DNA of 64,000 nucleotides. Source: Isoetes taiwanensis (taxonomy: Eukaryota; Streptophyta; Lycopodiopsida; Isoetales; Isoetaceae). Below, in pieces: positions 37,676-60,824 of this stretch. Below the pieces are notes generated by a model. The model worked only from the letters and a program-made list of their open reading frames with translations, searched no databases and was not told the DNA's origin. The number at the start of each line of letters is the position of its first letter. Position 1 is the first letter of the stretch. The stretch is taken from NCBI GenBank assembly GCA_021234155.1, contig JAJEKV010000001.1:20403243-20467242 (forward strand). The letters are read 5' to 3'. Position numbers and translations under genes: made by a program.

Positions 37676-37695
37676 TAGGTTGAGGCACTTACAGA

Positions 37696-38691: not shown

Positions 38692-38949
38692 TCAATCATC
38701 TTCTATTCTAAGTATTTCCTTTAAATCTTCGCAGACATCTATCTTTCTAAGTGATGGAAAAACAGATTCAGCTGCGTATCCGGTCCTATGCCCATATCCT
38801 GTATTAGGGACGTGGAAACTTGCACGACTGACATAGAGCCAAGCATTCGCCGAAGCCCACAAGCTTTCGAAGGTGCCATAGTTTTTACAACCCCAGCAAA
38901 AACTCATCTTCAGGACGCGTGGCATCATCTCTTCCATCGATTTCATCAA
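38692..38949 (-). CDS. Hypothetical open frame
   Basis: An 85-codon frame begins MMKSMEEMMPRVLKMSFCWG and ends with PSLRKIDVCEDLKEILRIED D, an acidic tail. It has coding-like composition but I recognise no family. It ends close to a point where a dispersed repeat with palindromic ends begins (38973). It could be a gene fragment. Confidence 0.25.
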   Translation of the reverse strand: MMKSMEEMMPRVLKMSFCWGCKNYGTFESLWASANAWLYVSRASFHVPNTGYGHRTGYAAESVFPSLRKIDVCEDLKEILRIEDD

Positions 38950-38972
38950 ACTGGGCTTCAGTGGGCTATTTA

Positions 38973-39036
38973 GTCCAACACTTACACAATCTTATATTAT
39001 AACTTATATTATAATGTTATTGTGTAAGTGTTGGAC
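38973..39036. repeat. Perfect 18-bp inverted repeat with AT-rich centre
   Basis: GTCCAACACTTACACAAT (38973-38990) is the exact inverse of ATTGTGTAAGTGTTGGAC (39019-39036). Between them is an AT-rich 28-bp loop that is itself partly palindromic (TTATATTATAA twice). The right arm and beyond match the dispersed repeat at 15560-15640. This could be two element ends fused tail to tail or a tiny foldback element. Confidence 0.8.
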
Positions 39037-39370
39037 CCAGCCCTAATTTTAACGGCCCAGATTCGACCAAACCAATGGCGATGATGATGCCACGTCACAA
39101 AGTTTTGAGTTTTTTTTAGGGTTCGCGAGGGCGCCTATGGCGCCTGCTGCATTCCTCCAGTGGTATCCACATGCACGCCACAGGTGGAACGGCACTGCTA
39201 GGTTCGACAGCTTCTTCAGTAGTCAAGAATGGTTAGGGTGATGTTGGCGAGGGAAAATAAAGGAGCAACGATGTTGTGGAATCCCTCCTATCATGTCTTG
39301 ATCTTAGGGTTTAGTTTTAGCTGTATTGTGTAAGGACGAGGCTTTTTCCAGAGATTGGAACCGGTGAAAG

Positions 39371-39661
39371 ATGAATTTGGAGCACCTGACTGAAGAGCCG
39401 GTCCTGGAACAGTTAAAATCAATCCCATTCCTTTTTCCATTCAAGATTGGAACAAGAAAGAGTGTGGCGATGGCGTCGGATTTGCCTGGCTTTGCTTCCG
39501 GTAGGACTCCTGCGTGTGCCCATTGCTGTGTTGCAAATTGTCATGTTTATCTGGTTTGGCTGGACAAAGCAAAGGAAACGTCTATCAGGGAATGGGTTAA
39601 GGGCATCAGAAGGTCTATTCACATGAATCTCGAGCTTGGATATGCGGAATCTAAAACTTGA
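39371..39661 (+). CDS. Hypothetical open frame
   Basis: A 96-codon frame starts MNLEHLTEEPVLEQLKSIPF and includes ACAHCCVANCHVYLVWLDKA, a cysteine cluster, and IREWVKGIRRSIHMNLELGY near the end. It has coding-like composition and follows a GC-richer segment (39120-39200). The family is not recognised. Downstream sequence to 40330 shows intron-like T-rich stretches before AG, so a spliced gene relic is possible. Confidence 0.3.
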   Translation: MNLEHLTEEPVLEQLKSIPFLFPFKIGTRKSVAMASDLPGFASGRTPACAHCCVANCHVYLVWLDKAKETSIREWVKGIRRSIHMNLELGYAESKT

Positions 39662-40411
39662 GCATGGAATTGTAATAAGTTTTGGTGGTAATTTATGCAG
39701 GGTCGAGTCTAATTTTTGAAGTCTCCAGAGAGTTGTGGCAAGAAGAGGTCAGTGTATGCTTTTGAGTTTCTCTAAATTCTAAAATCGTACTAAATCCTAA
39801 AATTATGAATATGATTGGGTTTGCTTGGCAGAGCAAGTGCAAGGACTAGCAGCCATTCACATGCTGCAATTTTGAGGGCAGCATAACTCAAGTATCGAGT
39901 TTTTCTTAAGGTCATGTCTTATCTGAATAATTTGGGTTTTGTGCAAAGGGTTTTTGTGCCAAGCAGAGCATATGAAGCCCACATGACAGATTGTTACAAG
40001 GTATGTGATTTTAAAGCTTTGCCCTGTTTATCCTTCTTTTGTTATAAGCAAATTTTAGCTTGGAGTTATTGCTTGATGCAGGAAATGTGAATACCCTGTT
40101 GACATCAAGCATCCGCAAAGGCTCCGTTTACGAAGATTTGCATGTATACAGCTAAAACATGCACACAAAATGTGGAAACATGGAAAGATCAAGTTTTTCA
40201 GCACTGTCTAATGTAAATCATTTGATGCAAAAGCCGAACAGTTTGATATGTATTGTACAATATGGAGAGCAAGATCATCCTAGGGTTTACAGCCCAGATT
40301 TGCAAAACGTGAATGGGCAAGGTAAATTTATTTTATAAGTTTATATACGATTAATCTGCCAAATTATATACCACATATTCACCCAGTATGTACCACAAAT
40401 TGACATTTTCA

Positions 40412-41835
40412 AACGTCATTGCAGTTTTTTTCGAGAAACGAAAGCTTCATCCCGGTAATATCATGGGCAACAAGGTAATTCTGCTGCAATATGTTCCCAA
40501 TAATTCCCAGACCATCATCTGCAGGAGTGAGCAACAAGCACTTGATGGTCTTAGCAGAATCAACAAAAGCCAAGTAATTTGTCTGAGGAGGGTTCAATAA
40601 AGCCCCATCAAATTGGAAGCTGAGAGAAAGGAATTGAACAGAAGAAGAAACCCCTGACATATTAAAGCAGACATCAAAACCCTTATAGTTGCGGGAAGAT
40701 CAGGCAAGGCATTGACGAAGGCATCTTTCACATAATTGAAAAGATTAGTATCCAAGTATGTAAAGGTAGTGCCAGAGTCAAAGATGGTGCCTGCAGAATT
40801 GGAATGGGAGATAAGAGTGTCACCCACAGTGATGCTCTTGAGTTTGACATAGTAAAGCTGGCTTGAAGATTGGAGGATAGGGGTAGAGCTAACTGAAGGA
40901 TCTGAGATGGCAGAAGAATCGCCAAGGAGCAATACACTGTCGTTGCTTTCAGTATAGCTAGTGAGGCAGTAAGAGAATTTTCCATCCAGTGAAGAAACTT
41001 GAGATATCAAGGAAGAGGATTCCATCCCAAATCCAACCAGCAATCTCTCATAATTTCTATTTCAAACTATGTATGATGTTCAGTAGGGTCGAGTGGAAAA
41101 AACTTTGTAAAACTTGGATAACCTATGACGGGAGAAGAGTATAAAAAATATGATGATTGATCCCATCTCCACCACTGAAGTCCCCAGTGAGTGTATGAGC
41201 ACAACCTACAACCACATCAAAAGGTTGCGAAGGACCGGAGTCCGAAAGCAAATGAAGAGCTTCTGATACATACTGTCCATTGTTGTATGACTCATCGGCA
41301 TATCCATAGTGGTAATCACAAGTACCACTTTCAGCTTCTGAACATGTTACTTCAGGCAGATAAGAACATTGTGTTGAATTGCATGGTATAGCACAGTTGG
41401 AGGGCATGAATTGCAAGACGCAGAATCCGCCCTTTCGCAGGCGCTGCAAGGGTTGCATTTAAACCAAACTATATCGCTTCCTGTGTCAAGAATTGCTGTG
41501 AACTTCTTTGCTGGAGTTCCTACTAGCACCTCCATCAAATACTCCTCTGCATATAAAATTTTGGATCTGTATGTAGTATCTAACTGCCTCCCATGAAGGC
41601 TGAACGTTGTGAGGCTAGATTTTAGAGCCTCTAACCTTTTCTAACTCCTCGATTTTGCATTGCTTAGCTTCTCAGGTATTGATTTGCCTGCATCTATATG
41701 TCGCAAATTTGCTCTGCCTGAATCGGCAATTGCTGGGCCTGAATTTGCTATATTCAGTAGTGCAATTATCACAAAGACTAGAAGGCATTGCCTTTTAGAT
41801 CCAACCAGGTCTCTAATGCCTGATGTGCTACACAC
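40412..41835 (-). pseudogene. Nepenthesin-type aspartic protease pseudogene (A1 family)
   Basis: The minus strand encodes an N-terminal signal-like segment (QCLLVFVIIALLNIANSGPA, 41835-41641) and then the first active site, VGTPAKKFTAILDTGSDIVW (DTGSD at 41473-41487). Next come the nepenthesin-type Cys-rich insert (CDYHYGYADESYNNGQYVSE), FSYCLTSYTESNDSVLLLGD and the second active site GTIFDSGTTFTYLD (DSGTT at 40765-40779). The C-terminal part has ADDGLGIIGNILQQNYLVAH (IGNxxQQNxxxxxD type). There are no introns. Frameshifts occur near 41410-41420 and 40690, and about 100 bp of unrelated sequence interrupts the reading after GDFSGGDGI (41045-41160). It is therefore a pseudogene, though both catalytic motifs survive. 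Intact relatives are secreted or vacuolar proteases. Confidence 0.9.
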
Positions 41836-41849
41836 TTTGTAATTTCTTC

Positions 41850-42980
41850 AAGTGACAAGTGACATAAGTGGTTTAACATCAATCCTCAGGAATTGGAATT
41901 CGGTTTCTACCTACAAGGTTTGCTTCCATTCAAGACTGCATGGAAGCTATAATTTATCCCATTGTTGGTAGTCGATGGGTTTGTACATTGTGTTGCTTTT
42001 CCAGCATTGCAACTAAAAGCTTCAATTGTGCAAAATATAACGTGAAGTAGCAATTTTTTTCAAGACACAAGCTTTTTAAGTGCACTAGAAAAAGTGAACA
42101 AATTATAATGCATTTGAGATGTGACTTACTGTCTTAACACATCTCACAAAGTTAGTTCCAAAATTCATTGTAAATAATTCATAAAATATCCACATAATTC
42201 ATCAATGTTCATTCTTATTTCGCATTTAGGCAGTGTGATGCAATATATAGTAAGTAGGAAAAAAAAGCTATATAAACAACTCTATAACAACTCATCCTCC
42301 CCCTCCCCCTTCCTCCGCTTTTCCTTCCTTCTCTATTTTGATAATCTAGAGTACTTTATATTGGGCATCAATCAAGCTCCACAATATGAGTTTGCTTTAA
42401 TTTATACCATATTGGAATGTTGTTGTTGATGTTGTTGTCGTCGTCGTAGTGTTTTGTTCTATTTGTTCATTTTCTCATGTCATCATATTTAGGGTTTTGT
42501 AGTCGTTCCTCATAGAGCCGCCAGTTTATTACAATGTGGGAATGTTTGTTTGAGTTTATGCATTATAATCCTTTTTATACTTTCATGGAACATAGGTTGG
42601 ATAAAGTGGTTTCCTACAACAAAGACATGGAATTCTCAAGTTTGGTACATAGAACATTCTGAAGCCCCAATAAAAAACATTTAGGCTTTTGGAAAACCCC
42701 AATTACATCTCACTTTGTTTGCTAAGAAACCCCAATACCATCTACCTACATTGGCACCAAGCCAATGCTAATGCTACATGTATTCTACATGTATTCTACT
42801 GCCTTCTTTCCTAGCAATGCTGTGCAATTTTTCTACATTTACATATATTTTGACATTAGTGTCTCGCCACAACATTTTGAGCATGTAGCTATGATCTTTA
42901 TGTATACTAAGGATGATGGCGCGAGTTCATAATCTACGATGACTTTTCTCATTGCGGCCAAAATATTTACAAACTTCCAA
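41850..42980. other. Intergenic DNA, no gene seen
   Basis: AT-rich region with a CCT/CTT-rich run (42295-42330) and a GTTGTTGTCGTC run (42418-42452). No supported gene. Confidence 0.5.
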
Positions 42981-42985
42981 CATAA

Positions 42986-43013
42986 GCCCAGCAACGCTGG
43001 GCACCGTTACTAG
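42986..43013 (+). mobile_element. Helitron 3' terminus (third example)
   Basis: Hairpin GCCCAGC-AAC-GCTGGGC (42986-43002), then ACCGTTA and CTAG (43010-43013), followed by T. It is nearly identical to the terminus at 30511-30538 but has different upstream sequence. The 5' end is not identified. Confidence 0.75.
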
Positions 43014-43186
43014 TAACTTTATAATATAGGATTTGTTCTATATAGTTACACTTCAAGTGTTACCAAGTAAACAATATGTAGTTTAGACATTTGTTAAAAC
43101 CTTAGATTTACATACATTTCATTAGTTCCAAAACAAATAAAATATTACATCAAAAATACACACCGTGAACAAAATTGGCAAAAGTG

Positions 43187-43262
43187 GAAAACGCCAAGTG
43201 CCCCATAAACATACAACTCAAACTTGGCAAACGCCCAAGTGCCCACATAAACATACAACCCA
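43187..43262. repeat. Tandem duplication of ~40 bp
   Basis: Two units contain CAAGTGCCC(A)CATAAACATACAA, at about 43187-43224 and 43225-43262. Non-coding. Confidence 0.6.
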
Positions 43263-43739
43263 AACTATACGAACAAATTATCACTCTCCTTTATAACACT
43301 CGCACATCTAGCTAGCAACACCCGACCAACGCCCGTCAACGCATATGGATCAGAGAGAGGACCATCTATGGCAGAACTAAGAGGCCGATATAAATACACG
43401 CCCTACATACAACAATGCGGAAATATATGGGCAAAGTAAAGAACATTAACATGCATGTGGACGTTAAAGACCGGGTAAAACACATGTGGGAACATTAGTT
43501 AGCGAATGCCGGACACACGTTTACTAGTTTCATATTCAAAACTTTTTGTAAAGTGTATTTCCTGTATACATATATATCAAAAAAGTTCCCTTTCTAGAAC
43601 GATTTTCTCAAGGTCCCTGTCAATTTCCCCTGTCCGATCAAGGTTTGGGTATAGTGTTTGTATCTCTTCGACCGTTTTTCCTGAAGCTTATTTCATGCGG
43701 GACACTAACAAAGCGGCAGAAGTCAACTTTGTCAAAATC

Positions 43740-43930
43740 TTGAGGATGATAGGGTGGGCGGATTCAATGACTGGACTGATTGAAGCAACACTTTAGAGGC
43801 GCCATCATCCACCATGATCATGCCTTCCTTATCCTCAACACCTAGGGCATCCATCATGTTGCGCAAGCATTTCACAAATATCTTTTACCCGCCGGTTCTT
43901 TTTAGGGTTTGTGAATGAATCACATTTGCT
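43740..43930 (-). pseudogene. Unrecognised coding remnant
   Basis: The minus strand from about 43890 reads FVKCLRNMMDALGVEDKEGM, then IMVDDGASKVLLQSVQSLNP P. This is coding-like but not assigned to a family. It lies downstream, in the same orientation, of the methylase-like remnant at 44575-45026 and may be a further exon or an adjacent gene of the same mobile unit. Frame breaks flank it on both sides. Confidence 0.35.
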
Positions 43931-44334
43931 TTGATCCCGGATGGACGCCCAATTTCTATTTAGCTCGGGGCACTACTTTTCAAAAATCATCTGTATATTT
44001 CTATGCTCCATAGATGACCAAATTACTAACGAAAACGTAATCAAGGCCTGGTCCAACATCTCCTTCGTGATAAGGGCGGGTAAACATATTTGGTAAACGC
44101 GGTCTCAAATGGTTGCTTAGCATACCACTGACTTTTCAAACGTTGTTTTAGGTAACGTTCTACATAGCACACCATTCAAATCAAAGACCCGATTACTTTG
44201 GGGAAGCCAAATCATTTACGTAAGGAGAACAATAACGTGATGAGATAAAGAAATGGAAACGGAAAACGCTGGTAGCGATTTCAAGAATGATGCATGTCAA
44301 CATAATTTAAAAAATATGATCTCTAGGTAACTCT

Positions 44335-44356
44335 AAATCGCTACCGCACGCGATTT
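44335..44356. repeat. GC-rich palindromic motif near the 3' end of the ParB/methylase gene
   Basis: AAATCGCTACCGCACGCGAT TT is an imperfect palindrome of the same type as those in the introns at 50.2-50.5 kb and 51.8 kb. A half-like copy (GCTGGTAGCGATTTC) is at 44269-44283. Confidence 0.6.
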
Positions 44357-44574
44357 CTATATGCTTGTAGTTTGAAAAATGCATGGATATCAACAAAAGG
44401 AAGATTGTTACGATACCTTTCTTCTTCGCCATTCCCCGCGGTGTATTCTTAGTAAGGTCCTTATTCGAAGTTGTCTATTCGATAGAAGCACCAACCACAT
44501 CGGGCTTGAGATGCATGCGACAAGTGAACTATGCTTGATAGTTCATTACTCTTTACGCTTAACGGCTAGTGTTT

Positions 44575-45026
44575 TCAGTTGGAGTCCGCTTCATCATCAA
44601 TATTGTTGTTATCATCATCCTTGTTAGCTTCATCCGATCTATATTTTTCGGTGTCATGGATGTTGTTCGGGCATGTCAATATGTACATGTTGATCCTGGC
44701 TCTTCGATTTCATCCATCATGTTTTGGCCAACAAATAGCTTTCTCAAATTCTCCCGTTCCTTAAGCAAATCTGCAGGTATTTCGGCCTTAGAGCTAGAAG
44801 CTTTGTTTTTTGCACTGCCGATTGGTCCCCTAGGTGCTTCCTCTAGTACTTTCTCAAAGAAGAGGTCCAAGAAATTCCTGGCGAGATCATCGGAGACGAC
44901 GCTCTGACATTTCCTTGCTAACTTCAAAGCTTCTCTACCGATGTAACCTCCAACGTGAAGTTCCCAGCAAGTTGTTCCCAATGGACAAAATGCTTCAATG
45001 AGGTACTGGGAAAGGTCCATAAACAA
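44575..45026 (-). pseudogene. DNA-methylase-like C-terminal block with acidic tail
   Basis: The frame from 45026 reads DLSQYLIEAFCPLGTTCWEL then HVGGYIGREALKLARKCQSV VSDD. This recalls the motif I region of N4/N6 DNA methyltransferases of the beta class (FSPxGxxVLDPFxGSGTTxxAALxxGRxxIGxExD), where the SAM-binding motif follows a xLI/xxxSPxG segment. The DPFxGxG core is not preserved (WELHVGG), so SAM binding is doubtful. A helical segment (DLLKERENLRKLFVGQNMMD) follows. In another frame the strand ends with an acidic tail (NNNIDDEADSN, stop at 44575). The resemblance is from motif pattern only. Confidence 0.4.
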
Positions 45027-45055
45027 GGTGACGGATCAAACGCACTAATGACCTG
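45021..45055. repeat. Inverted repeat, left arm (partner 48724-48758)
   Basis: AACAAGGTGACGGATCAAAC GCACTAATGACCTG is repeated in inverse orientation at 48724-48758 with one or two mismatches. The arms enclose 3.7 kb. This could be the TIR pair of an inserted element or the inverted ends of two gene copies. Confidence 0.7.
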
Positions 45056-45363
45056 CAATTGCACTAATAAAAAGCATCTTTCGAAGATCCCCTAAGATTC
45101 CCTTAAATTCGACCACTTTTGGGGGGTCTTTTAAAAAAATGGACCACAAATTTAGATTTCGAGTGCCATTTTTAGGTCCTAGATTTTAATAAATGAAAGT
45201 CTTTAGACTTGTAGTGCATCGATATAGGGTCTGAAAATAAAAAGTAATTTTGTAAAAAGTAAGCACATACAGGAAATCTACAAACTGAAAACACCACTAG
45301 AATCCTCGTAAGTAGATTCGTTAACAACTATCAAGAAGGACGAAATCAAGGTTCCTAGAATAG

Positions 45364-45498
45364 CCCATCGCGGTGGTGGTCTAGTGGTAAGGCCTTGGAT
45401 TGGGGTAATCCCACCGGGGTTCAAAACCCCCGGGCTACCACCTGGGGAGATGTGGGTGGCAAGTCCCACCAACCTTGCCCTTCAAAAAAAAAAAAAAG
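45364..45498 (+). mobile_element. tRNA-derived SINE with A-tail and 14-bp target duplication
   Basis: The body of about 135 bp has an A-box-like GGTGGTCTAGTGGTAAGGCC (45376-45392 region), a B box GGTTCAAAACCCC (about 45418-45430) and a 14-A tail (45484-45497). It is flanked by a perfect 14-bp direct repeat GGTTCCTAGAATAG (45350-45363 and 45499-45512). This is a textbook plant SINE, transcribed by Pol III and mobilised by a LINE. The perfect duplication indicates a young insertion. Confidence 0.95.
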
Positions 45499-45512
45499 GG
45501 TTCCTAGAATAG

Positions 45513-46280
45513 GCCTAAGGAAAAACAAAAACACAAAGGCTAGAGATAGACAATCAAAGGCGAGGAAAGACGGAGTTTTTTAATTAGAACACAAAATACT
45601 ACAAAAATCCCCCGCATACTTGACAAGCAACTTAAATACGTCGACCTCCTCTTAGAAGGTGACCCGGAAGAAGAAGAGAAGCATAAAGGACTATATGCAT
45701 GTAAGAAATTCTTGTTTTCCGTGTCTATGGCTATGCACGCATAGCACAATATAAAATCTTGTTACTTGTGGCTATGCAGCCATGAGAGAACATAAAAATA
45801 GTGTTACTGCATCTATGCAAGCATAGCATAAAACATCTAAGCGAGGCCACATAAGATAAAAAGCCTTTGTATGAGGTATTAATCCATGCTTGTAGCTTGC
45901 TCGTTGCTCATGGATTTTTGGAATCTTCCTAATCAAGTATCCACATTCAAAATTTCAAAACGAAGCCCCAATAGTTCCTATTAATCCATGGCATAAGATA
46001 ATGGTTCATTCAGCTTTGAAAATGTTTTCCAAAGGTGAAGTGAAGTGATATCAACCGATATATCAACCGGTCTTGAACAACGAAGCAAAAAATAAGAATA
46101 GGTGCTAAGTTTGCATACAAGTCCAAAAGTTGGACTTCGCGGTGAATCATGATAAGATAATACCACCGGAAGGCGATTCCTCACTAACGATGCCGCAATG
46201 TCTTGTCTAATGCAGGCGCTAGCTAGCAAAGAAGCCAAAATTGACATTACAATAAAACCATGAGGAGCATGAACTTAAAA
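45513..46280. other. Intron-like or intergenic sequence
   Basis: There are no gene signals except a weak frame at 46247-45981 (minus). The region is AT-rich and lies between the exon-like blocks of the ParB/methylase gene. Confidence 0.4.
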
Positions 46281-46282
46281 TT

Positions 46283-46830
46283 GTTTCACTACCTTAAGCC
46301 CAACGGACATATTGATGCCAAAGATTGGAATTCCCATGTATGATAGCTCTTCTAACTCCATTAAGTTAACCACACAAAAGATGAAAGATGAAAGAGCTCA
46401 ACTTTAATAGTCATGAGATTGACCAAAATCTATATGGTTCTAACAAAACATAATTACATAGGACCAACCTACCTCAACCATTGCATCTAAACCCTCTCGA
46501 TCCGGCAATTTTGACCAATGAACTTGTTCTGTATTATTGATCCCCATGTCAAGCGGAATGATTAATCACAAAAAATCATAAAATGTACATAAATACCTTT
46601 CTTGAGCACAATATGAATTCTTTGTGATGGCGAAGCACGAGATTCCCTTGTTTACGCAATCTTGAAAATGTGGCAAACAAGTAAGCAAAAATTCTAGTTG
46701 GGACAAGCGCCTTATAAAGATAAATTGTTCCATCGCCTATTCGAATAGGATGGATGATCCAGTCTTTCAAAGAACAGGCACATCCACAATTTGTAACATC
46801 AATTGGAAACGATATCGTTTAAAATTAGCA
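46283..46830 (-). pseudogene. Short exon-like blocks, same strand
   Basis: Three coding-like pieces lie in order on the minus strand. The first is LKDWIIHPIRIGDGTIYLYK then ALVPTRIFAYLFATFSRL. The second is LDMGINNTEQVHWSKLPDRE then GLDAMVE, ending at a GTAGGT donor (46472). The third is EELSYMGIPIFGINMSVGLK, ending at a GTAGTG donor (about 46293). The donors and coding-like pieces suggest small exons of the same gene as the flanking ParB-like and methylase-like blocks, or of a separate gene. I recognise no family. Confidence 0.35.
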
Positions 46831-46839
46831 TTGACATCA

Positions 46840-48700
46840 TGCGGCATAAAATAGACCTTAAGTCTTTGTGTAAAAGCTCCAAAGCCGTGGCAAAGCCTCA
46901 AGCAAAGATAAAATAGAAGCGGGGCTCGTTGTTGGCGCGGCAGTTAACCTATTCATCATTATCTACTCACGAAAATCTGTAAGTTTGAGGCTTTTTATTT
47001 GTGATTCATGCTCCAACTTGAGAAAAATCTAAACCGAAAGATGCAAAAAGAACCCCAATCGATGTTTTCCATCACAAATAATGGCACAAAAATTTCACAA
47101 AAAGCCCTTTTTTTTTCACAAATCTTACCTCAGAGCTTCTTCTTTATTATTTGCCAAGAACACTTTAGAACACAAAGGCTGCCTAAAATCGTCAAATCGT
47201 CCACGATACTTGAAGACAAGAAAAAAGTCGAGGAAAAAAGGTCTAGGTTGCTATCGGCGCATAGCATAAAAAGATTTTTGTCTATCGCTTGCTTATAGAC
47301 CACGACCTACCGTAAATTTCTACCTACCATTTTTTTACAACCTACTAATTTGTACCCCTCGCAATATTTTCCTACCTATTTATTTTACCAATGTTATTTC
47401 AAAGAAAATGGTTTCTAGACCATTTCTATTGTTTAGTTCATTGCAGATGTTAACAGGTATTTATGGTTTGAAAAGCTTCTAACATAGTGGCAACCTTAAC
47501 CATAGCTATATCTTTTTTTTTTGCCTCAACGTTGATTATGTGCACATAACTTGGGTCTCTTTTTTTGCACCTTTTAGATTATGCAGGCTTAGCTTGAAAA
47601 ATTATTTATCCTTCTAGGCAAAAGCCTGGCAACCTTCTTTTTCCTTCTAGTTGGCTCTAGGAGCCTAGCTCACCAACATTTCCTCTGGAATTGAAACATT
47701 GAAGCCATTAAAATGATGTAGTTGGATGAGGGTAGACAATTCCCCTTTTTATTTTTGTGCTTTGGAATTTTACTTGTGTTTTACACCATCTCAGATAATG
47801 AACTCGTGCTTTCCAGAATTAAAGGTGATTGGATTTGTGTCAACATTACAAAAATTGAATTGAAGTAAAGCCAGGAGATTAATTTGTTTTGCTTGGCATT
47901 GAATGTATTCTTGAGAACGACGTAGAAGCTTGAGGATACCAAAAATTGAGTATTTGGTTCAAGATAGATACATAAGCATTAATGGTAATTTGTAAAAGAA
48001 GGTTATACAATTATCTGGGTTTAGGTCGTCAAAGTCAATATAGAACTAGTATGGCTGCACCGCTACTTGTTCTTTTTCTGATGTAGACTCTTCTTATTGG
48101 AAATACAAAGGATAATTATTGTATGCTTTGTATTCACATTTGGACAAAGTCATGAAAGCCGACCATGTTTACAGAATTCTTCCGGGCTTTTTAATTTAGT
48201 TGCTTATACGTGAGACAATGTTTCAAAAGTTTTTTTAATGATGTTTTGGATCTTTGTGTATGTGGCTCATAGACAAACATTAAGGTTTACGCGGCACGCA
48301 AGGACAAACACTATCTTGTTGTGGAAAAAAAACATTATTTATTATTAATTATTGAATTTTCAAACAATGGTTTTAAAAAATGTGCATGTCTATGCGGCGC
48401 ATAGACATGCTTTTATCTTTAACTTTACATTTTGGCGAAAAGGGCCTTTGCATCATTATTTGCGTTTCTTTGATGCTTCTAACTGTTCATCGTATTGTGT
48501 TTGTGTGTACGTGCACCCAGGTCAAGTGCATAAACGTTTAAAATACTACAAAAAACGACCCCCCTTTTAATTATAAATGTTGTGTTTTGTTTGTTTGTTC
48601 CAAAAAATGCACCTTTTTTAAGGTCAAAGGACCGTTTCTCTAAATTTTTTCTTAAGATATGCCAAAAGTACCGAATTTTGGGGTTTTTTTAAAAGGAATC
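46840..48700. other. Intron-like AT-rich sequence, no gene seen
   Basis: T-rich on the plus strand with short chance frames. I see no repeat boundary until the hairpin at 48713. Confidence 0.45.
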
Positions 48701-48712
48701 TTTTTGTGTGCG

Positions 48713-48758
48713 CAATCGCACTACAGGTCATTAGTGCGATTGATCCGTCACCTTGTTC
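48713..48758. repeat. Inverted repeat right arm overlapping an 11-bp-stem hairpin
   Basis: CAATCGCACTA-CAGGTCAT-TAGTGCGATTG (48713-48742) is a perfect 11-bp hairpin with an 8-base loop. It overlaps the right arm (48724-48758) of the inverted repeat that pairs with 45021-45055. Confidence 0.75.
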
Positions 48759-50117
48759 ATAGAGAACCCGTTCTTGTTTAGCTTCCCCTTATGTGAAGTT
48801 AAGAGCTCATACTTAATGTGGCCCACAAGAATTGGGTCGTCCTCGTTTTCATCCTCTTCTTCCTCTAACTCTTCCACGACCTTGACAGCCTTCCCCTTGT
48901 TTTCTTGCTCCAGATAGAAGACATTTCGCATTATGCGTTCATCTAACTGATAGCACTGCCATGCTAGTTTTTCTCCATCTGTTTTTCCCTTAAGCCTTTC
49001 ATATTCCTTATCATCCATCATGGCTATCATAATAATAAGCACATGAGAAATTTTTTCTTTGTCTTTGAAGTCACCGTCCTTGTTTTCATCTATGAGGATC
49101 GGGCCTGTCGTTATGACTTTCATGCATTCTAAGTCATTTGCAAAAGACTTAGAGCATATGCATAGGACATGTCGGAGGGACATATAGTGACGATTGTGTA
49201 ATTCATTTTCGTCGTGCAACCCGTGCATATGTTGAAGAACGATTATAGTCTTCAAGCGACCATCACGGTGCCTCGGCTATCAAGCCGCGAAGAGTGTGAT
49301 ATCATGGGACCTTCACCCACTTCCGGCAAGGCACACTTGAAACCATTGGAGACTTGATAAAAAAAGCGTGGATTCGTCTCAGGGTCCGCTTCACCAACGC
49401 GACTTTTCGTTTCAAGTCGGATGCAACTTTGTGTGAATCCCATCTTTGCAACGTTCTTCAACTTCCGCTGCTTGACAAAGTCCTTGGACCAAAATACATA
49501 CTTCTTTAGGTCGCCGTTGGAGACGCGTTATACTTTTGCATGAGTCCTAACTCCGACAACGACCACTCTCCTGTAAGCCTTTGTAATTCCTCACCAACCG
49601 CCTTCTTGAGCACTCTAATATTTTTCAGCTCGTTGCATGCATCTTGAATGATTCCATAGCCTTTGTTTGCCGAGGTTTTTTTTTGTAAAGGATTTCCTTT
49701 CGATTAACCTATCCAGACTGGAGATGAGTTCTTGATCTTCCAATCTTCGGGCCTTCCTCATCTCTCGTTATATGGATATCAAAAATTGATGTGTCAACAG
49801 AGGAAATCTTCCTTGTGAATCGGCAACTTCTTCTCCACGTAGGGCGCCCCTGTAATTCATTCCATTTCTCCCAAACCGAATCTGAAGCAAAAACTATCTT
49901 GCATGCATCCTTGGGTACAATTGGTTCTTCGGCAGCGTCACCCTTTTCATCTCTTTTTTTTTTCTTTGTTCTGGTGCTCTTGGTCTTGTCCTGTATTATA
50001 GTCTGACTAAGTGTCCTATCCAAAGAACTTGAATTCGCCGCTTTTGGATGGCCCTCCCCGGGCCGGCATTGGCTTCCCATATTCAATCCATCGGGTTCCG
50101 AGCATGCCAAGTTGCTC
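48734..50117 (-). pseudogene. Middle charged block of the ParB/methylase-like gene
   Basis: Frames at 50110-49709, 49461-49252 and 49255-48731 follow in order with coding-like composition. They include a lysine/acid-rich linker (KSTRTKKKKRDEKGD), CKIVFASDSVWEKWNELQGR, KKAVGEELQRLTGEW-type helix sequence, KNVAKMGFTQSCIRLETKSR, RHYMSLRHVLCICSKSFAND and a long acidic run (VVEELEEEEDENEDD). I recognise no catalytic motif. Placement between the ParB-like block and the methylase-like end suggests a linker and helical region of one large protein. The block is broken in several places. Confidence 0.4.
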
Positions 50118-50182
50118 TATATAGGATCGCAAGGAATAACCGTTAGCTTCATAATCGTGAATTCAAACAATCCTTCTAGTTT

Positions 50183-50545
50183 AAAATCGCCACCACGCAG
50201 CGATTTCATATTAGAAGGCAAATCGCCAGCGTAATTGCCTTTCTAAATAGCAAAGGGTTTTTTGGAATGGTCCTATAAGCAAATCGCGCTGGTAGCGATT
50301 TCATATTAGAATACAACTTGCACCACGCTAATTTGCCTACTTTGAGGAGAAACGACTATCTTCTTCAATGACCATGTCTCTCTCGCATGGATGGCAATTT
50401 GTATTCTAATATGAAATTGCGCCAGCGCGATTTGCTTATTTGATTTAGAAACGCCTACCATCCCAGGAACCCTTTGTTATTTAGAGAAGGCAAATCGCTA
50501 CCGGGCGCGATTTGTTTCTACTATGAAATCGCTTGCATGATTTGC
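50183..50545. repeat. Cluster of GC-rich palindromic motifs (AAATCGC...GCGATTT)
   Basis: Six or so copies lie in an intron-like interval: 50183-50205 (AAATCGCCACCACGCAGCGA TTT), 50221 (partial), 50281-50301 (AAATCGCGCTGGTAGCGATT T), 50414-50433 (AAATTGCGCCAGCGCGATTT), 50492-50513 (AAATCGCTACCGGGCGCGAT TT) and 50526-50543 (partial). All are imperfect palindromes with AT arms outside a CpG-rich core. Confidence 0.85.
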
Positions 50546-50582
50546 AAATACGAAAAATAAAAATGTAGGAAGAGAATTACCT

Positions 50583-51699
50583 TTTGTATAAGAAAGTTTT
50601 TGCCATGTCATTTAGGAGTGCACTTATTTCGGCTAGTTCGGCAGGTGTTGTTGAGCCGCCAGAACCGGGTTTTCGGAATAAAGCTTATAGAACAACCGAT
50701 TCCCGAAAGATACGTGCCTTCTTGATGAGAATCTTCTGGGCCTCTATTGAATGCTGGCCATCTATTATCATAAAATGTATGTCTGGGTTCTCAATGAAGT
50801 CCTCCAGCTTGCTCCAAATGATTACCTTTTTTGTTCTGGTATCGTATGGCACTGACATTTGCAGGCATTGGCACCTGCCCTGGATTTTCGATCATGCTGT
50901 TCAATATCTCCAAAGAGTGCTGCTTGTCATACCTTCTGCTAATATAAATAGCTTTAGTGGACCTGAAAAGCCTGTCCACGTTGACTGGATGGGTGAAGCT
51001 GACTTGTCGGCATATTTCTTCAGTTTGCTCATTGCCTCCAACTGTCTGGCCTTGTCATCGTCACTTGTAAGAGCCTGCTGTCACTTCTGTGGTTTCCCTG
51101 CCTTTAGAGCTAGCTTCTTCCTTATCCTTCACTGCCTGTAAGTAGACACTGCCCGAGGGCCTCGTGCTAATGACTCGTCGAACAGTTGTAAGCCCCTCGC
51201 ATATTCTTCTAGGAGTCAATGGCTCGCCAACTGTCCAGCCAAATTTGAAGAGGTTATCGGCCATGTCGTCTGATCTTAAAGCAGTCTCTTTAAAAGAGCT
51301 CGCCTTTGCAATGATTGATCTTCTTTTAGGCTCTTCTTATGTTTTGGCCCACTTCAACTAGCATGTAACGTAAAGAATCGCCCCAGTACTTCACATGTAA
51401 TAAGAATTCCCGCTTCTTCATTTGATCTGGTCTCTCTTAACCTTGACATGAATATGAGGTCCGCTCTTCTTCCCCACCAGCTTTGAATGTCTCCACATAC
51501 CATTCTGACCCCTCTATAAGATCTTCTTCTGGACATGGAGGTTCTACCTGAGCCTTTATTATTCCAGATGTATCTTCTAACGTCAATACGTGCTGCAGGT
51601 TTGTAACAGTAACATCTTCATCTGTCCTTTGCTTTTTCTGGGCTGTAGAGATCTCGCCTTGCTTGGTCCTCCCTCTTTTGATTGTCTTTTGTGATCCTG
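50583..51699 (-). pseudogene. ParB/DGQHR-like domain block
   Basis: The block begins after TAATTTCACAG with a lysine-rich linker (SQKTIKRGRTKQGE) and an acidic part (CPEEDLIEGSEWYVETFKAG). Later pieces are NLFKFGWTVGEPLTPRRICE, RSTKAIYISRRYDKQHSLEI, MIENPGQVPMPANVSAIRY and, in another frame, ENPDIHFMIIDGQHSIEAQK. The last has the DGQH signature (50751-50762) of ParB/sulfiredoxin-like folds, seen also in DndB-type DGQHR proteins, and RYDKQHSxEI...NPGQxPxP fits the upstream ParB box. The block ends at a GTAATT donor. It is broken over several frames. Such domains bind or cut DNA or hydrolyse nucleotides; the activity here is unknown. Confidence 0.5.
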
Positions 51700-51763
51700 T
51701 GAAATTACAGCACATGGGTTAATCTTTTAATGCTCAAATATATGCTGTCGACACATATGCAAC

Positions 51764-51925
51764 AAAAACGCGCTTGGCGCGATTTGAAAATGAATACACA
51801 GCAAGTTCATTTAGTTTATTGGGGTCAGGGGCCAGGCGCGTTTTGTCCCAGTCAAAATGCAACAAATACGCGCTTGATAAAGAAACTAATGTAATGCCTA
51901 ATTAAACTGCGCCAGGGGCATTTTG
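51764..51925. repeat. Second cluster of GC-rich palindromic motifs
   Basis: Full motif AAACGCGCTTGGCGCGATTT at 51766-51785 and decayed versions at about 51828-51844 (CCAGGCGCGTTTTG), 51866-51880 and 51907-51924 (CTGCGCCAGGGGCATTTTG). These lie in the intron between exon 1 and the ParB-like block. Confidence 0.75.
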
Positions 51926-52271
51926 TCCGAATCAAAATGCTCAGAACACAACTAACTATAAAAAATGCAACTTAAAGAGTCGAATCTTCATTAGAGGACA
52001 CAACTAACTATAAAAAACACAACTAGTTAGTGAATACTGTTCAGCTAAGTATACAAGCTTCAAACAGCACATACTGCATTAAAAGAGAAACCAACATGTA
52101 CACATTAAGCATTTGTTTCCATACATTTTTGGGACATATGAACTCAAACATTAGAGGACACATGCTTCTTATTGGATAATAACTATATTATTATAGAAAA
52201 ACATCCTAAAAATCTAACAAAAAAAGGGACACAGAAATCAATTCTGAGTAACAAAAAGCAGATCAATTACC

Positions 52272-52388
52272 CGAGGGCTTTGTTGGATTTGTGCTCGCTT
52301 GTTCGCTGACCTCCGTGCTTGGGATTTGTGCTTTGGGTTGTCGCCCACCTCTACCAGCCTCGGGCCGGCCAGATCCTCTAGACGCCAT
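52272..52388 (-). pseudogene. Exon 1 of the ParB/methylase-like gene (basic N-terminus)
   Basis: The frame starts MASRGSGRPEAGRGGRQPKA at 52388 and runs through QIPSTEVSEQASTNPTKPS to a GTAATT donor just before a stop. The glycine/arginine-rich basic N-terminus resembles a nuclear DNA-binding or localisation tail. The start codon was chosen for its position after a stop-rich AT stretch and for the change in composition. The following intron (about 51700-52271) contains palindromes at 51764-51785 and after. Confidence 0.4.
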
Positions 52389-53354
52389 AGAACCGCAAGT
52401 GCGGATAATATGAGATGGGGGTTTTGGTTTAAACTTATATGTATCGTTCATAATCTAGGCCGCCGATTTACAACCCTAAATTCAAATTGGCGTCCTTTTA
52501 AATTTATACCATTTTTAATTAACCCTGCCCCCGCCATTTACAAATTTAAATTGTGTTGTTTTTCTTTTAGTGCAATTTCAAGATAACAATTAATTATTAA
52601 TTTCAAGAAACGATATGTGGCAATCTACTACCACCTAATCGGCCACCTACTATCATCGAGCGCCCAAGATCATTCCTACTATCGAGGCCCCCAAGAACAA
52701 TCGACTATCGAGGCCAAGACCCGATCTTCAATCCCATTCAATCGATCGAGCCACCTTCAATCCCATTCGATGTCTGTGAACTATGGTGAGTGTGATTCTA
52801 TTCGAATGCATTCTCTTGTTCTCTATTTTTCGTCCTCTATTTTTTTCCAATGCATTTACGGTTCTTTATCGATTGTCGGAGAAGAATGCTATCTTTAACA
52901 AAGAAACTTGAAGCGCCGAGTAGGCTTATGTAAAATCGAAGATCTGAATCCAAGTTCTATGTGTCATGGTGTTCCTCTTGAAAATAGTTTCTGTAAGATT
53001 TCCATTATAAACTGCAATTATGAAGATGAGGCTCTTCCAAGAAGACATCCCGGTGGCGATACAGTTGGTGAAAGTGTGGGCACATTTGTAGCATGGCCAA
53101 AAGAATGTCTGAAAAAGGTATGTATATTTGGATATTAAAAAAAAATGAATATATCATAACATCTGCGTGATGTTGTGAATTTTGAATTCTTTGATGTTCT
53201 TTAGCCAGTCATATCAACCCCATGAAACTACACATTAATGAAAATATGTAGTTTCTTGGGGTTGGTCATACTGGCTGGAGGGCATCAAAGGATTCAATGT
53301 TTTCGACATTGCATATAAAAAAACATAATAAACTAATGACATAAAAGTATAGTG

Positions 53355-53443
53355 CAAAATTGCGCCAGGCGTGAGTTTGTATTCATATTCCAAAAAAGTG
53401 TATGTACATTTCTTCTTCTGCAAAAATGCGCCAGGCGCGAATT
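53355..53443. repeat. Palindromic motifs (GCGCCAGGCG type)
   Basis: Two copies, AAATTGCGCCAGGCGTGAGT TT (53356-53377) and AAAAATGCGCCAGGCGCGAA TT (53422-53443), share the core GCGCCAGGCGCG with the clusters at 51.8 and 54.0 kb. Confidence 0.8.
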
Positions 53444-53459
53444 CTTTGTATCTCTACAA

Positions 53460-53806
53460 TCTGTCACATAGGCCCACTTCATCGGCCCAATACCATAAAA
53501 GTCCCACGAACCATCGGTGATATCACGGGATCCTCATCTTCCCTGCGAATGTCGAGTCTCCAAACCAGAGTGTTGTATCGATCCTTGATACTATAAATCA
53601 AATCCTCGTATTTATTTGTTGGCATGAGCCTTACTAAGAGCATGAGGAGCCCGATATGTCCGAGATGCGATGAAAGTGTTCCCATGGCCCCCGATGATCG
53701 TCTAATGGAATCTCCAACTCTCTTTGAACGTTTTGAACAAAGACAATCAAGTAATATCTTTGTACAGGGTCCAGAGTTGATGGTCGTTCAGGGGAAGTGT
53801 ATTTGA
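53460..53806 (-). pseudogene. Coding remnant upstream of the ParB/methylase gene
   Basis: The minus strand reads SSHLGHIGLLMLLVRLMPTN then KYEDLIYSIKDRYNTLVWRL and DIRREDEDPVISPMVRGTFM. It is coding-like with conserved-looking charged pairs. The pattern of a helix followed by a xLVWRLDIRRED strand could belong to a methyltransferase core, but I cannot confirm it. It is bracketed by palindromes at 53355-53443 and 53942-54119, so it likely belongs to a neighbouring copy or a displaced exon of the same family. Confidence 0.35.
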
Positions 53807-53941
53807 ACTAGAACCATCCAGTGTAGGATCAGCCAGTGTCCATGCATAAGGAAAATCCATGGCACTAGAACGAGAGAAATTAAGTAATTAGCAAATGATA
53901 TATTACTCTCCCCATAAAACGATTCTGAACATACATAATTC

Positions 53942-54119
53942 AAAACGCGCCAGGCGCGTTTGCTTTGTTTTTTTCACAGATCTATTTCACACGCGCCTGG
54001 CGCGATTTGTATAGAACCGTATGAAATAGAAAAGCCAAACTAAAAATGCGCCTGGCGCGCTTTGATTAACCTAGTGGAAAATCGGAAACCAAAAATAGAA
54101 ATGCGCCAAGCGCGATTTC
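53942..54119. repeat. Third cluster of GC-rich palindromes (four copies in 180 bp)
   Basis: Copies are at 53942-53961 (AAAACGCGCCAGGCGCGTTT), 53991-54009 (ACGCGCCTGGCGCGATTTG), 54044-54063 (AAATGCGCCTGGCGCGCTTT) and 54099-54119 (AAATGCGCCAAGCGCGATTT). They are the best-preserved members, with a core GCGCC(A/T)GGCGCG and orientation differing only in the central base. Confidence 0.9.
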
Positions 54120-54239
54120 TCCCATTCTAACATATTATTCTAACAGAATGCATAATCGTTGAATACATTATTTTAGTTCAATATTTAGTTCATTGTTTTA
54201 GTTCATTATTTAGAGTAGATAGAGGAAGAGCTAGTGAAA

Positions 54240-54363
54240 TAGAATAAGAGCAGATATAACAAAATCATATAAGCAAGATCATAGAGCAGATAGATCATAG
54301 AGCAGATAGATCATAGAGGAGATAGATCATAGAGCAGATAGATCATAGATCATAGATCATAGA
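54240..54363. repeat. AGATCATAG-type simple repeat
   Basis: Degenerate tandem units AGATCATAGAGCAGAT/AGATCATAG. The same repeat continues at 58961-59030, on the other side of the 4.6-kb insertion, which suggests the element landed in one array. Confidence 0.85.
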
Positions 54364-54516
54364 TAAGTCGTATTTAATTAAAGTGGGACAAATCTCGAAT
54401 TTTGGGAATCGGACTGAAAATGGGACTGATGCAAAAAAAAAAGTAAGTTGCCATTGAATCATTATTAGATTTTTCCTTGATAAAATAAGAATAACATTTA
54501 CACATGACAATCCGAG

Positions 54517-54790
54517 AAAATGAAGGGGGGGGTGGAGAAAGAAGAGTAGGGAAGGGAGACTGGAGGAAGGGAGGGGGGGGGGAAGGCAAATACCTAAGAG
54601 GGCAAAAAGGTAAAAGAGGAGGGGCTGAGCAAATGGGGGAGGGAGGGGAAGGGGAAGGCAAAGGGAGGGGAGGGGTAGGGTCTCTTGGGGGGAAGGGGAG
54701 GAGGGGGAAGGGCAAAGGGAAGGGGAGGGGCGGGGTCTCTTGGGGAAGGGGGGAGGGGAGGGGTCTCTTGGGGAAGGGGGGGGAAAAGGA
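54517..54790 (+). repeat. G-rich polypurine tract
   Basis: About 270 bp on the plus strand are almost purely purine with dozens of G-runs of 3-8, interspersed with GGGTCTCTTGGGG repeats. It could form G-quadruplex or triplex structures. The proline-rich frame on the other strand is a by-product. Confidence 0.85.
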
Positions 54791-54993
54791 GTTAGATAAT
54801 AAATTAATAGATAATAAGTAGATAATTAGATTAGATAATTAGATAATAAATAGATAATAAATTAAACAACTATTTAATTAGATAATAAATAATTAAACAA
54901 TTTAGACAATGCTGAGAAGTTTTTTCTCGCCTCACGAGGCGAGAATGGGCTAATTCTCCCTTTCAGGCTCCCCAAGCCTTCAGCAGAAGCCCC

Positions 54994-55320
54994 ATGTTGG
55001 ATGGCCGGCTAAGAAATGGGCACCAAATATTTCTTTTGTTGGGCGCCCATGGAACATTATACAAAATAAAAATAAAACTCACTCCTTTTAAACATTATAA
55101 TCCTTCTCGACTACCGAGTCGAGAAGGCACCTTCTGCTTTTTGAAGGCAATAGCCGAGAAGGCATCTTCTAGATCCACATATATATATGGAAAATATGGG
55201 CGTGATAAATCGCACTGTGAGGGAAATAGAAGCTCTCGATCCGAGAATAGAAGGAAAATGGCTAGTCTAGAAAAACACCCGTCTTGCAACAGGGGTCAAA
55301 AAGCTGTGAAGGGGGTTTGA
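54994..55320 (+). CDS. Hypothetical open frame in the MULE-like element
   Basis: A 108-codon frame starts MLDGRLRNGHQIFLLLGAHG and becomes basic and serine-rich (GKYGRDKSHCEGNRSSRSEN, RRKMASLEKHP). It has more coding-like composition than neighbouring frames, but there is no recognisable domain. It could be a captured exon or chance. Confidence 0.2.
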   Translation: MLDGRLRNGHQIFLLLGAHGTLYKIKIKLTPFKHYNPSRLPSREGTFCFLKAIAEKASSRSTYIYGKYGRDKSHCEGNRSSRSENRRKMASLEKHPSCNRGQKAVKGV

Positions 55321-55329
55321 AGTAAACTC

Positions 55330-56620
55330 TCAGGCATGTGCGAATCCGAGGGCTGGGAAGGACGCGAAGACACGGTGTAGAAGATCGAAAAGTCAATTTG
55401 GATTTTCAAATCTCTTAGCGGTTGAACAATGTATGGCGGCGCCCGAAGCATCTAGTTCTTGTGGTCGAGGAGAAGGGGCCCGCCATCAGAGTTCTTGTGG
55501 CCGATCGACGGAATTGATGGGTTAAAATCCCATTTGTGGGGGTACATTTGAAAAAGATCGACGGAATCGATGGGCTAAAATCGCCCATTTGTAGTGTGTG
55601 ACTAAAGGAGCTCTTAAACGAGGCTAATTCATCGTAGAATCAAGCTTGTAGAAAGGTCGGAAATCAAATCCACGCATCTAACCCACATGAAGAAACGGAT
55701 GAAAAGGAGCGTAAATCGCCCAAATCCCGCACGTTAACGATGGTTATTTTTTTTCGGCTTTTTGAAGCATTTGGTATCGTAAACGTAAAGAAGTGGGCGT
55801 AAATTGAAGAAAAGGAAGAATTTGGGAAGATCAAGAAGCTACATACATCCGTCGCCGAAAGCTGCCAGCTCAGATAAATAATGGGGAAGAGGGGGTGAAA
55901 AAAAGGCAAGCTTTGTATGCATTAAGAAGGAACTGAAACGGAGCCGAGATTCATAGAGATCAGAGTACACTCTAGAAACAAATTTTGCATCCGCCCCGGT
56001 GGTAAGGAAAAAAATAAGTCCGTGGGCCATAGAATCTGCAAGAGCTTACCGTAGAATGTGGAAAAGAATTTGCATCCATGAAAGCTCTTTTTGGCATATG
56101 AGATGCCATCCCGAACGAGAATGGCGAGGGATCCAAATGGCCCGAGAATATAAATCCGTGAGAAAAGAGCCCGGCGATTCGGTAATGAGATCCGCCTCCT
56201 ACAGGCGATTACTTCTTGATCGACTTCTTGGTGCCATTGTGTCACAAAGGCGAAAAGAATGAGATGAAGGCTGCCGGAGTTGAAGAAAGTGAGAGAAGCG
56301 GAGGATCTTTCGAGAGAAGAGGCTTCTCATCCGCCGGATCTTTTTCATCTGCGGATCTTTTTTTCATCTGCATTCTTTCATCCGCCTCCTTCTTTCGTCC
56401 TCGCTCTACCGGATCCTTTGCTCTGGGCTGGATCGGGTGAGTTTGAAAACTAGTTTGAAAACTAGACCATGGCTTCCGCCTTCAAATAACAAAGGGAAAA
56501 TAAAAATTTTGAGCCCTATGTCATTTTTATCTCGACTCTCCATAGATGTGAAGCTTTTGGTTATGGTCGATTTAGGTGGGAGCTATGCTCACGGAGCTTC
56601 TTCAAAAACAAAGAGTCCAA
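55330..56620. other. Interior of MULE-like element, no gene recognised
   Basis: Weakly coding-like frames on both strands (for example 55999-56262 plus and 56216-56440 plus) without a recognisable family. Degenerate repeats of GATCGACGGAAT and CATCCGCC(T/G)GATC occur. Confidence 0.4.
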
Positions 56621-56628
56621 GTGGTACA

Positions 56629-56985
56629 AAGGAGTTTCGTCTCAAAGGTATGTACCAAATTTTAAAATTCAAGCATGGGCGGGAAAAAGGAGGGTATTAG
56701 AAGATGGGGGGGAAAAAAAAGGCGGGGTATTAGAAAAAAAGGGGGTAAAATAATACGTTGAAAAAGGAAGTGTAAAATAAATGCTAATAATATATAGGAT
56801 TATATTTTGACGTGTCCCCAATTTAGAAAGGAGTTTCGTCTAAAAGGTATGTACCAAATTTTAAATTCAAATTTTAAAAAAAAAGCATTATTAGAAAAAA
56901 AAGGGGGTAAAATAATACGTTGAAAAAGGAAGTGTAAAATAAATGCTAATAATATATACGATTATATTTTGAGGTGTCCCCAATT
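56629..56985. repeat. Tandem duplication of ~155-200 bp
   Basis: Segment 56629-56824 is repeated at 56829-56985. Both share AGGAGTTTCGTCT, GGTATGTACCAAATTTTAAA, AATAATACGTTGAAAAAGGA and AATGCTAATAATATATA. They differ by an internal deletion or insertion. Confidence 0.85.
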
Positions 56986-57489
56986 TCTCTTTTTATGTGT
57001 GTGCTACTATGTTCACACCTTAAACATTATGTTGCCATGGTGCACGTTTTCTAGGCATATATTCTTATTCTAAGGTAAAAATTTAACTTTGCGAAGATCA
57101 TGATATAATTTACACCTTGTTTAACCCATTTTGAAGGTTCAAGACACAAAATGGGGACAAGTACATATTAATAGGTCTAATGCATATTAATAGATTTAAT
57201 GCATAGGTCTAAAGGCTCTCATAGGTTATATTGTGCATTATAGGTGCATATGTTGCTATTTACATGTGCATTAGGCATTACTCTTTACATAGCTAAATAT
57301 GAGCCCAATGGTCCCCTTTTCATATAGCTATATGGTATGGTCCATTAGAAAGGGGGAGGGTCCATTGGATATGTGTCCATTAGATAATACATGGGGAGGG
57401 TCAATTTTTCATGGAAAATACGTAAGAAATTTATGGGGAGGGTATTTTTTCATAGAAAATACATAGGATGTTTGAAGGTTATTCATTTT

Positions 57490-58195
57490 CGACCTTCTCA
57501 GACTCTGAGCTTTGAAATTGCCCTTTTTTTCTCTTCGCTTTTTTCGACTTTGAGTCGAGAAAGGCCCCTCAAACTTGCATTTTTCGCTTTTGTTGCTTTT
57601 TTCGATTTCGCTTGAGTCGAGAAAGGCCTTCGACCCTAAAAACTGCGTTTTACGGCTTTGGCGCCTTTCTCGACTTCGCGATGAGTCGAGAAATTCCCCG
57701 ATCCATAAAACTGCCTTTTTTTAAACCCTGGTACTTGCGTTTCTCGTTTTGAGTTGCCTTTCTTGGTCGAGAAAGACCTTCCGGCCCTAAAACTTGCGTT
57801 TTTTACTTTGGGCGCCTTTCTTCATGAGTCGAGAAAAAGGCCTTCGACCCCCTAAAACTGCGTTTTTGGCTTTGAAGGCGCCTTTTCGTCGCATGAGTTG
57901 AAAGGCCTTAATCCCCTAAAACTTTTTTTTTTAAACTTTGTTGCTTGCCTTTCGCCATTTCGAAAGGAGAAGCCTTAACCCTAAAACCTCGCGTTTCGGT
58001 TTGAGCCGCCTTTCTCGACTCGTGAGTCGAAAGGCCTCTCGATCCCTAAACCGCGCTTTTGCTTTGAGTCGCCTTTCTCGACTCGAAGTCGAGAAAGGCT
58101 TTCTGACCCCCTAAAACTGCGTTTTTTTTTTGCTTTGAGCCGCCTTTCGACTTTCATGAGTCGAGAAAGGCCTTCCGGGACCTATGTTTCTCCCT
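57490..58195. repeat. Degenerate minisatellite with TCGA-centred palindromes
   Basis: About eight to nine units of 70-100 bp contain GCCTTTCTCGACT...GAGTCGAGAAAGGC (a palindrome), CCTAAAACTGCGTTTT and GGCTTTGAG. Units vary in length and have lost parts. Each can form a hairpin around CTCGACTCGAAGTCGAG-like cores. Confidence 0.85.
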
Positions 58196-58300
58196 CATTT
58201 GCCTTTCTCATGCCTATATTTTCCAAAAATGGCCCTAAGAACTGTGTTTTTTTTTTTTGCATGTAGCATCACTTGACTAATTTGATTTTGTCTCTTGCAG

Positions 58301-58451
58301 TCCTTATCTTGACCAGATAGTACATGCTCGGGAGCAATGAAAAGAGCAGTTCATTGAAGAAAGGTGCCGAGAAGAGGGTGGTGACATCAGTTGGACATAC
58401 AAGCACGTGGCCCATAAAGGAACTCCTCATACAAATTTCTATCGTCTGTAA
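58301..58451 (+). pseudogene. Unrecognised terminal exon in the MULE-like element
   Basis: A strong acceptor (TTTTGTCTCTTGCAG, ending 58300) precedes PYLDQIVHAREQ, then, after one in-frame stop, KEQFIEERCREEGGDISWTY and KHVAHKGTPHTNFYRL with a terminal stop at 58449-58451. It reads like the C-terminal exon of a conserved host protein, probably captured. I do not recognise the family. The internal TGA shows it is no longer functional. Confidence 0.45.
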
Positions 58452-60795: not shown

Positions 60796-60824
60796 TGAAA
60801 GATTAGGGGGAGGACAAGTTAGGT

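Follow-up and report, generated by a model that had tools for sequence, protein, structure and literature searches.

ParB-like domains joined to DNA methylase domains are known from accessory genes of algal transposons. In the brown alga Ectocarpus, Sola1-1_Ec32 is described as a 21.5-kb Sola1 element in which an accessory gene lying opposite the transposase encodes ParB-like and N4/N6 methylase domains (PMC12477816); the same paper cites ParB-methylase proteins from green and red algal transposons (Iyer 2011; Petroll 2025). According to PMC10741241, elements of the Sola superfamily have terminal inverted repeats (TIRs) and 4-bp target duplications and measure from 2 to over 15 kb, and a Physcomitrella Sola1 appears in a table of PMC9033089. 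Two further reports describe N4CMT of bdelloid rotifers as a captured gene of the host that serves to silence transposons (PMC8885841) and plants as having lost the AMT1-N6-methyladenine (6mA) pathway (PMC12695648). Here we analyze a 64,000-nucleotide stretch of the Isoetes taiwanensis genome (the window), in which a first-pass annotation had proposed a ParB/DGQHR-like and methylase-like gene of bacterial or phage type that was acquired by a plant lineage, gained introns and spread as a repeat family. We find that this gene is the accessory (passenger) gene of a TIR transposon of about 12.4 kb, and not a host gene. The locus is likely a decayed copy of a Sola-like, cut-and-paste DNA transposon with a ParB-like accessory gene, and sister transposons of the same genome carry a bacterial-type DNA methylase.

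The boundaries of the transposon were defined by comparing copies across the genome (1,658,258,908 bases in 1110 contigs). An 832-base piece yielded 632 candidate places, and the best 40 of these, the window included, scored at 88–100% identity, which bears out the proposed repeat family. A common 3′ end was read in 17 of 20 further places from the same listing. Tracing two copies upstream yielded the full element, 12,432 bases long in copy A and 12,396 in the other, with inverted ends that begin AACCATCATTCAATTAAATTGGGATTATGTCT and TIRs of 32 bp. Among 16 copies inspected for both ends, nine had both, each with an identical 4-bp target duplication (9/9); the 5′ end of the remaining seven lay outside the stretch examined. 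The window copy, which matches copy A at 65782–63218, 61119–58959, 54364–48755, 45021–43528 and 11811–10952, is flanked on both sides by the duplication CCAT, bringing the perfect 4-bp duplications of a TIR transposon to 10 of 10 both-ended copies.

On the strand opposite the accessory gene, copy A encodes a DUF7869 domain (E=1.3e-19). The open-access literature search returned no paper on this domain. Its protein is presumably a DDE-type transposase, which would mobilize the element. Genome-wide, DUF7869 gave 9,903 first-look candidates, and the best 150 of these all scored above the cut-off.

By inference, the accessory gene consists of four exons and is divergent from the DUF7869 gene. Its product has a block with the DGQH motif, a long region in the middle and an acidic linker, and its C-terminus is NIF phosphatase-like. 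Its splice sites are conserved, and the GT/AG junctions recur in other copies. Among 20 copies surveyed, with up to three substitutions tolerated and the exon 3 acceptor left out, five splice junctions were recognized in 19, 17, 19, 15 and 11 copies and were canonical in 14, 14, 19, 14 and 9, respectively. The gap from 45022 to 48757 was ruled out as an intron, as it is a nested TIR element with its own CATA duplication. In the window the gene is broken by frameshifts in exon 2 and an interruption of exon 3, and the exon 4 acceptor AG of other copies is altered. Elsewhere some exons are intact: among 19 copies of exon 2, three are open across all 382 codons and one across 378, and among 12 copies of exon 3, one is open across 714 codons and one across 685. 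These counts are lower bounds, since the frame choice was off for L010 and L022, and L016 was left out.

Variants found in a single copy look near neutral, whereas those shared by at least three copies include fewer amino-acid changes, with nonsynonymous to synonymous counts of 459:207 and 151:113, respectively (Fisher p=0.001). Stops numbered 31 among the single-copy variants versus 4 among the shared ones (p=0.03). Both comparisons drew on 21, 16 and 17 rows for three exons and excluded variants in exactly two copies; the p-values are rough because related copies are not independent. The pattern shows signs of past purifying selection on the predicted coding sequence.

The last exon, which is absent from the first-pass reading, is profile-supported as NIF phosphatase-like (PF03031, E=1.6e-17 in copy L026). 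The catalytic motif of NIF/FCP-type phosphatases is DxDx(T/V). In the three window-family copies compared (A/L011, L026 and L009), this motif was not found; its place reads DLNGV, with asparagine replacing the second aspartate.

The methylase scheme is seen in sister transposons of the same genome. The single sister copy analyzed over its whole length, L052, measures 8.2 kb and has TIRs (ends AACAAGGTT...AACTTTGTT) and the duplication CTTA. It contains a DUF7869 domain (E=5e-52), a divergent ParB-like exon (VLGGNHSFKARRQL) and the methylase motifs DLPYG and DAFSGSGTT. The methylase matches N6_N4_Mtase (PF01555) at E=5.3e-18, with DLPY and FSGSG in place, and its best match among solved structures is CcrM (E=3.1e-8). 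The part of the first-pass annotation that envisaged a bacterial-type methylase beside a ParB-like block, with introns and spread as a repeat, is right in outline, and these sister elements show the methylase clearly.

Across the genome, PF01555 gave 1,443 candidates, and the best 150 of these were all above the cut-off (150/150, best E=3e-17); the best 150 of 3,498 candidates for the sister ParB-like exon were likewise scored. Candidates beyond the best 150 of each family are unconfirmed. Among the matches listed, a ParB-like locus was found within 6 kb of at least 47 of the 150 methylase loci; 46 of these pairs are on the same strand, and in 45 of the 46 the ParB-like locus lies 1.7–2.6 kb upstream of the methylase. 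DUF7869 lies within 15 kb of at least 24 of the 150 methylase loci (23 on the opposite strand) and at least 26 of the 150 ParB-like loci (26 on the opposite strand). The neighbor counts are lower bounds because the lists hold the best-scoring part only. The first-look candidates for DUF7869 and N6_N4_Mtase are very many, far beyond the window family.

We call the sister exon ParB-like on the basis of its GGNH motif, a sub-threshold DUF6551 match, its place in the gene and the algal precedent. Several results weigh against it. The DUF6551 match (E=0.04) is below the cut-off and the second of two Pfam matches, and no ParB family scored above the cut-off; PF02195 (ParB) had no match in the whole genome. 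The PDB search returned no ParB structure for this exon, and of the sister exons only the one with methylase motif I found a match. For the sister N-terminus, a BAH-like interpretation was abandoned, as it had no Pfam support.

The corresponding block in the window family is likelier than not to be homologous to ParB, on support that is weak and mixed. A competing explanation is that the window gene shares no ancestry with the ParB-methylase genes, being a different accessory gene that occupies the same position, with a chance DGQH motif and an added plant-type phosphatase domain; we regard this as a serious, although less likely, possibility. The motifs themselves are present as first read, with DGQHS at 50748–50762 on the minus strand and RYDKQHSLEI and NPGQVPMP in the block 50791–51054. 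In the forward test, a hidden Markov model (HMM) built from five sister sequences gave scores of 1.4–4.8 bits for five rows of the window family, and 22 of 5000 shuffles reached the median; with phage ParB added, 16 of 5000 did so (forward p about 0.003–0.004). The best matches in the hhalign comparison of the window and sister families (E 0.07–0.19, insignificant) fall at corresponding motifs in matching order, and the gene layout is the same in both families. The sole Pfam match of the window fragment, sub-threshold, is to DUF6551 (E=0.17), a family also matched by the sister exon, although the longer pieces of other copies did not give it. These points argue against non-homology.

The opposing results weigh against ParB homology, and the reverse, pairwise and hhalign outcomes among them favor the non-homologous explanation. 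No Pfam or NCBIfam profile matched the block above the cut-off, in the window fragment or in the longer pieces of other copies. The reverse HMM test of the ParB pair failed, its score being matched or exceeded by 704 of 5000 shuffles, and pairwise local alignment missed the pair (542 of 2000 shuffles). The hhalign E values range from 0.07 to 0.47, with probabilities all below 1%. AlphaFold models were of low confidence, with predicted local distance difference test (pLDDT) values of 33.5 (AF2, ParB block) and 29.3, and PDB searches with alignments A2 and A3 returned no significant match.

The methylase comparisons point in the same direction. Motif I was missed by pairwise alignment (411 of 2000 shuffles), and motif IV was equaled in 54 of 2000. 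HMMs were built from six of seven sister loci (L047 was left out, its first motif missing in one frame) and from nine of ten phage methylases (EdgarPoe was left out, its motif lying beyond the stretch); on the window family they gave at most 0.2 bits, versus up to 6.1 and 8.6 for shuffles. The window family also had no PF01555 or NCBIfam match. Where DPPY and FxGxG are expected, weak alignments place DMSY and FCPLG instead. The profiles reject a methylase in the window family, though weak matches sit at the expected motifs. Of the block that the first-pass annotation had considered methylase-like, GREALKLARK is present; the SPLG is not, as the block 45035–44676 reads CPLGTT, and its first residues derive from the nested insertion. 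The methylase call fails in the window family and holds in the sisters.

Direct transfer of a bacterial or phage ParB-methylase gene into the plant, followed by intron gain and amplification, was the origin first proposed, and we now consider it highly improbable. Among the sequences searched, those nearest to the sister methylase are indeed enzymes of bacteria and phages, for example CcrM and MboIIA. However, in the fully read copies A, B and L052 the gene sits in a TIR element, divergent from the DUF7869 gene; 23 of 24 methylase-DUF7869 neighbors are on opposite strands among the matches listed; and an algal transposon has the same arrangement. Since the vehicle is a TIR transposon and the closest reports concern algal transposons, direct bacterial acquisition is not supported. 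Viruses or phages as the source of the ParB part were also rejected: the search for relatives of the window block found none among the viral contigs and phages searched, and the sister exon had none in the phages searched. The least probable explanation is that the copies are pseudogenes of an ordinary multi-exon plant gene captured by chance (Pack-type), which would suit the broken window copy and the occurrence of NIF domains in plant genes but neither the recurrence of one unit with the same ends and gene order across many copies nor the constraint among older variants.

For the Sola-like transposon with a ParB-like accessory gene, we hypothesize that the ParB-like part lets the accessory protein bind the DNA of its own element. 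In sister elements it would write adenine (or N4-cytosine) methylation on the element, and this methylation could perhaps mark the element as self, aid excision and repair, or evade silencing. In the window family, the methylase part may have been lost or may have changed too far to be recognized, and the added phosphatase-like domain would act on host proteins, perhaps on RNA polymerase II or chromatin in the vicinity of the bound element. A bolder and rather unlikely generalization, offered tentatively, is that this vascular plant, whose lineage is reported to have lost the usual adenine-methylation pathway of eukaryotes, hosts transposons in the hundreds to thousands that use a ParB-guided bacterial-type methylase of their own for self-marking with 6mA or N4-methylcytosine (4mC), and that one branch has swapped the methylase for a phosphatase-like domain, turning from writing DNA marks to host phosphorylation.

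Table 1. Features of the transposon copy in the window (window positions; a dot marks features given no strand)
Feature	Position	Strand	Remarks
Whole transposon copy	10952..64000, on to 65782 past the window end	- (accessory-gene orientation)	Four nested insertions
3′ terminal inverted repeat	10952..10983	-	Reads AACCATCATTCAATTAAATTGGGATTATGTCT on +; CCAT duplication at 10948-10951
Accessory gene, exon 1	52271..52388	-	Starts MASRGSGRP; GTAATT donor recognized in 19 copies and canonical in 14 of them
Accessory gene, exon 2, ParB/DGQHR-like block (IIDGQHSIEA)	50581..51696	-	Spread over three frames in window copy
Accessory gene, exon 3, first part	48755..50180 (start approximate)	-	Frameshifted in window copy
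Accessory gene, exon 3, second part, CPLGTT...GREALKLARK then acidic linker	44418..45021	-	Severed from first part by nested insertion
Accessory gene, exon 4, NIF/FCP-type phosphatase-like	43577..44217 (end approximate)	-	Degenerate; window match 44188-43580
Presumed transposase gene, piece	63219..63727	+	DUF7869 domain of window copy at 64469-65298, outside the window
Presumed transposase gene, further piece	60935..61109	+	
Nested insertion(s), 31.7 kb	11812..43527	.	Gap in copy A match
Nested TIR element	45022..48757	.	Ends AACAAGGTGACGG...CCGTCACCTTGTT, duplication CATA; between the two blocks of the first-pass annotation
Nested insertion(s)	54365..58958	.	Gap in copy A match
Nested insertion	61120..63217	.	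Gap in copy A match

The nested TIR element that severs exon 3 is probably a relative of L052, because it has the same AACAAGGT start and a 4-bp duplication. Within it, 45350–45515 is tRNA-like and A-tailed (GTGGTCTAGTGGTAAGG...GGTTCAAAACCCC...), with repeated GGTTCCTAGAATAG on its flanks, and looks like a short interspersed nuclear element. The 31.7-kb insertion contains, by eye, long open reading frames on the minus strand at 22081–27928 that resemble the endonuclease and reverse-transcriptase-associated sequence of a long interspersed nuclear element. Minus-strand fragments at 36194–36562 and 40594–41061 resemble, again by eye, a plant pentatricopeptide repeat (PPR) protein and a plant aspartic protease. 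At the margin of one nested insertion, a polypurine-rich low-complexity tract (54517–54800) adjoins AT-rich tandem repeats. Introns and flanks of the element contain many short palindromic units, GC-rich with AT-rich sides (e.g. GCGCCAGGCGCG), at 50184–50532 and 51765–54124.

Compared with described systems, the window element agrees with the Sola superfamily in its TIRs, 4-bp target duplications and size, while its own protein is named by DUF7869 alone. We therefore call it Sola-like, from the duplication length, TIRs, layout and precedent, and not a proven Sola member. Among adenine methylases, the sister motif-I exon matches CcrM, MboIIA and RsrI by sequence; the sister gene differs in being on a plant transposon and in having introns and an upstream ParB-like exon. 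Rotifer N4CMT is likewise a bacterial-type N6_N4 methylase in a eukaryote, but a host gene, unlike the transposon-carried gene here. The green and red algal transposons, as cited, have the same domain pair as the sister families in another host. The open-access literature search listed no ParB-methylase transposon from a land plant, and among the titles listed only that of the Ectocarpus paper pointed to such a transposon.

The closest counterpart is Sola1-1_Ec32. It shares with the Isoetes elements the TIR type and the placing of accessory gene and transposase on opposite strands, and with the sister families the ParB-like and methylase parts. It is a 21.5-kb element of a brown alga, whereas the land-plant elements measure 12.4 kb (window family) and 8.2 kb (L052), and the window family differs further in its added NIF domain and in having no recognizable methylase. 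With ParB-methylase accessory genes already known from brown, green and red algal transposons, such genes in many land-plant copies would extend the kind to vascular plants, and the window family, a variant with an unrecognizable methylase and a phosphatase-like domain, offers a chance to ask what purpose the accessory protein serves.

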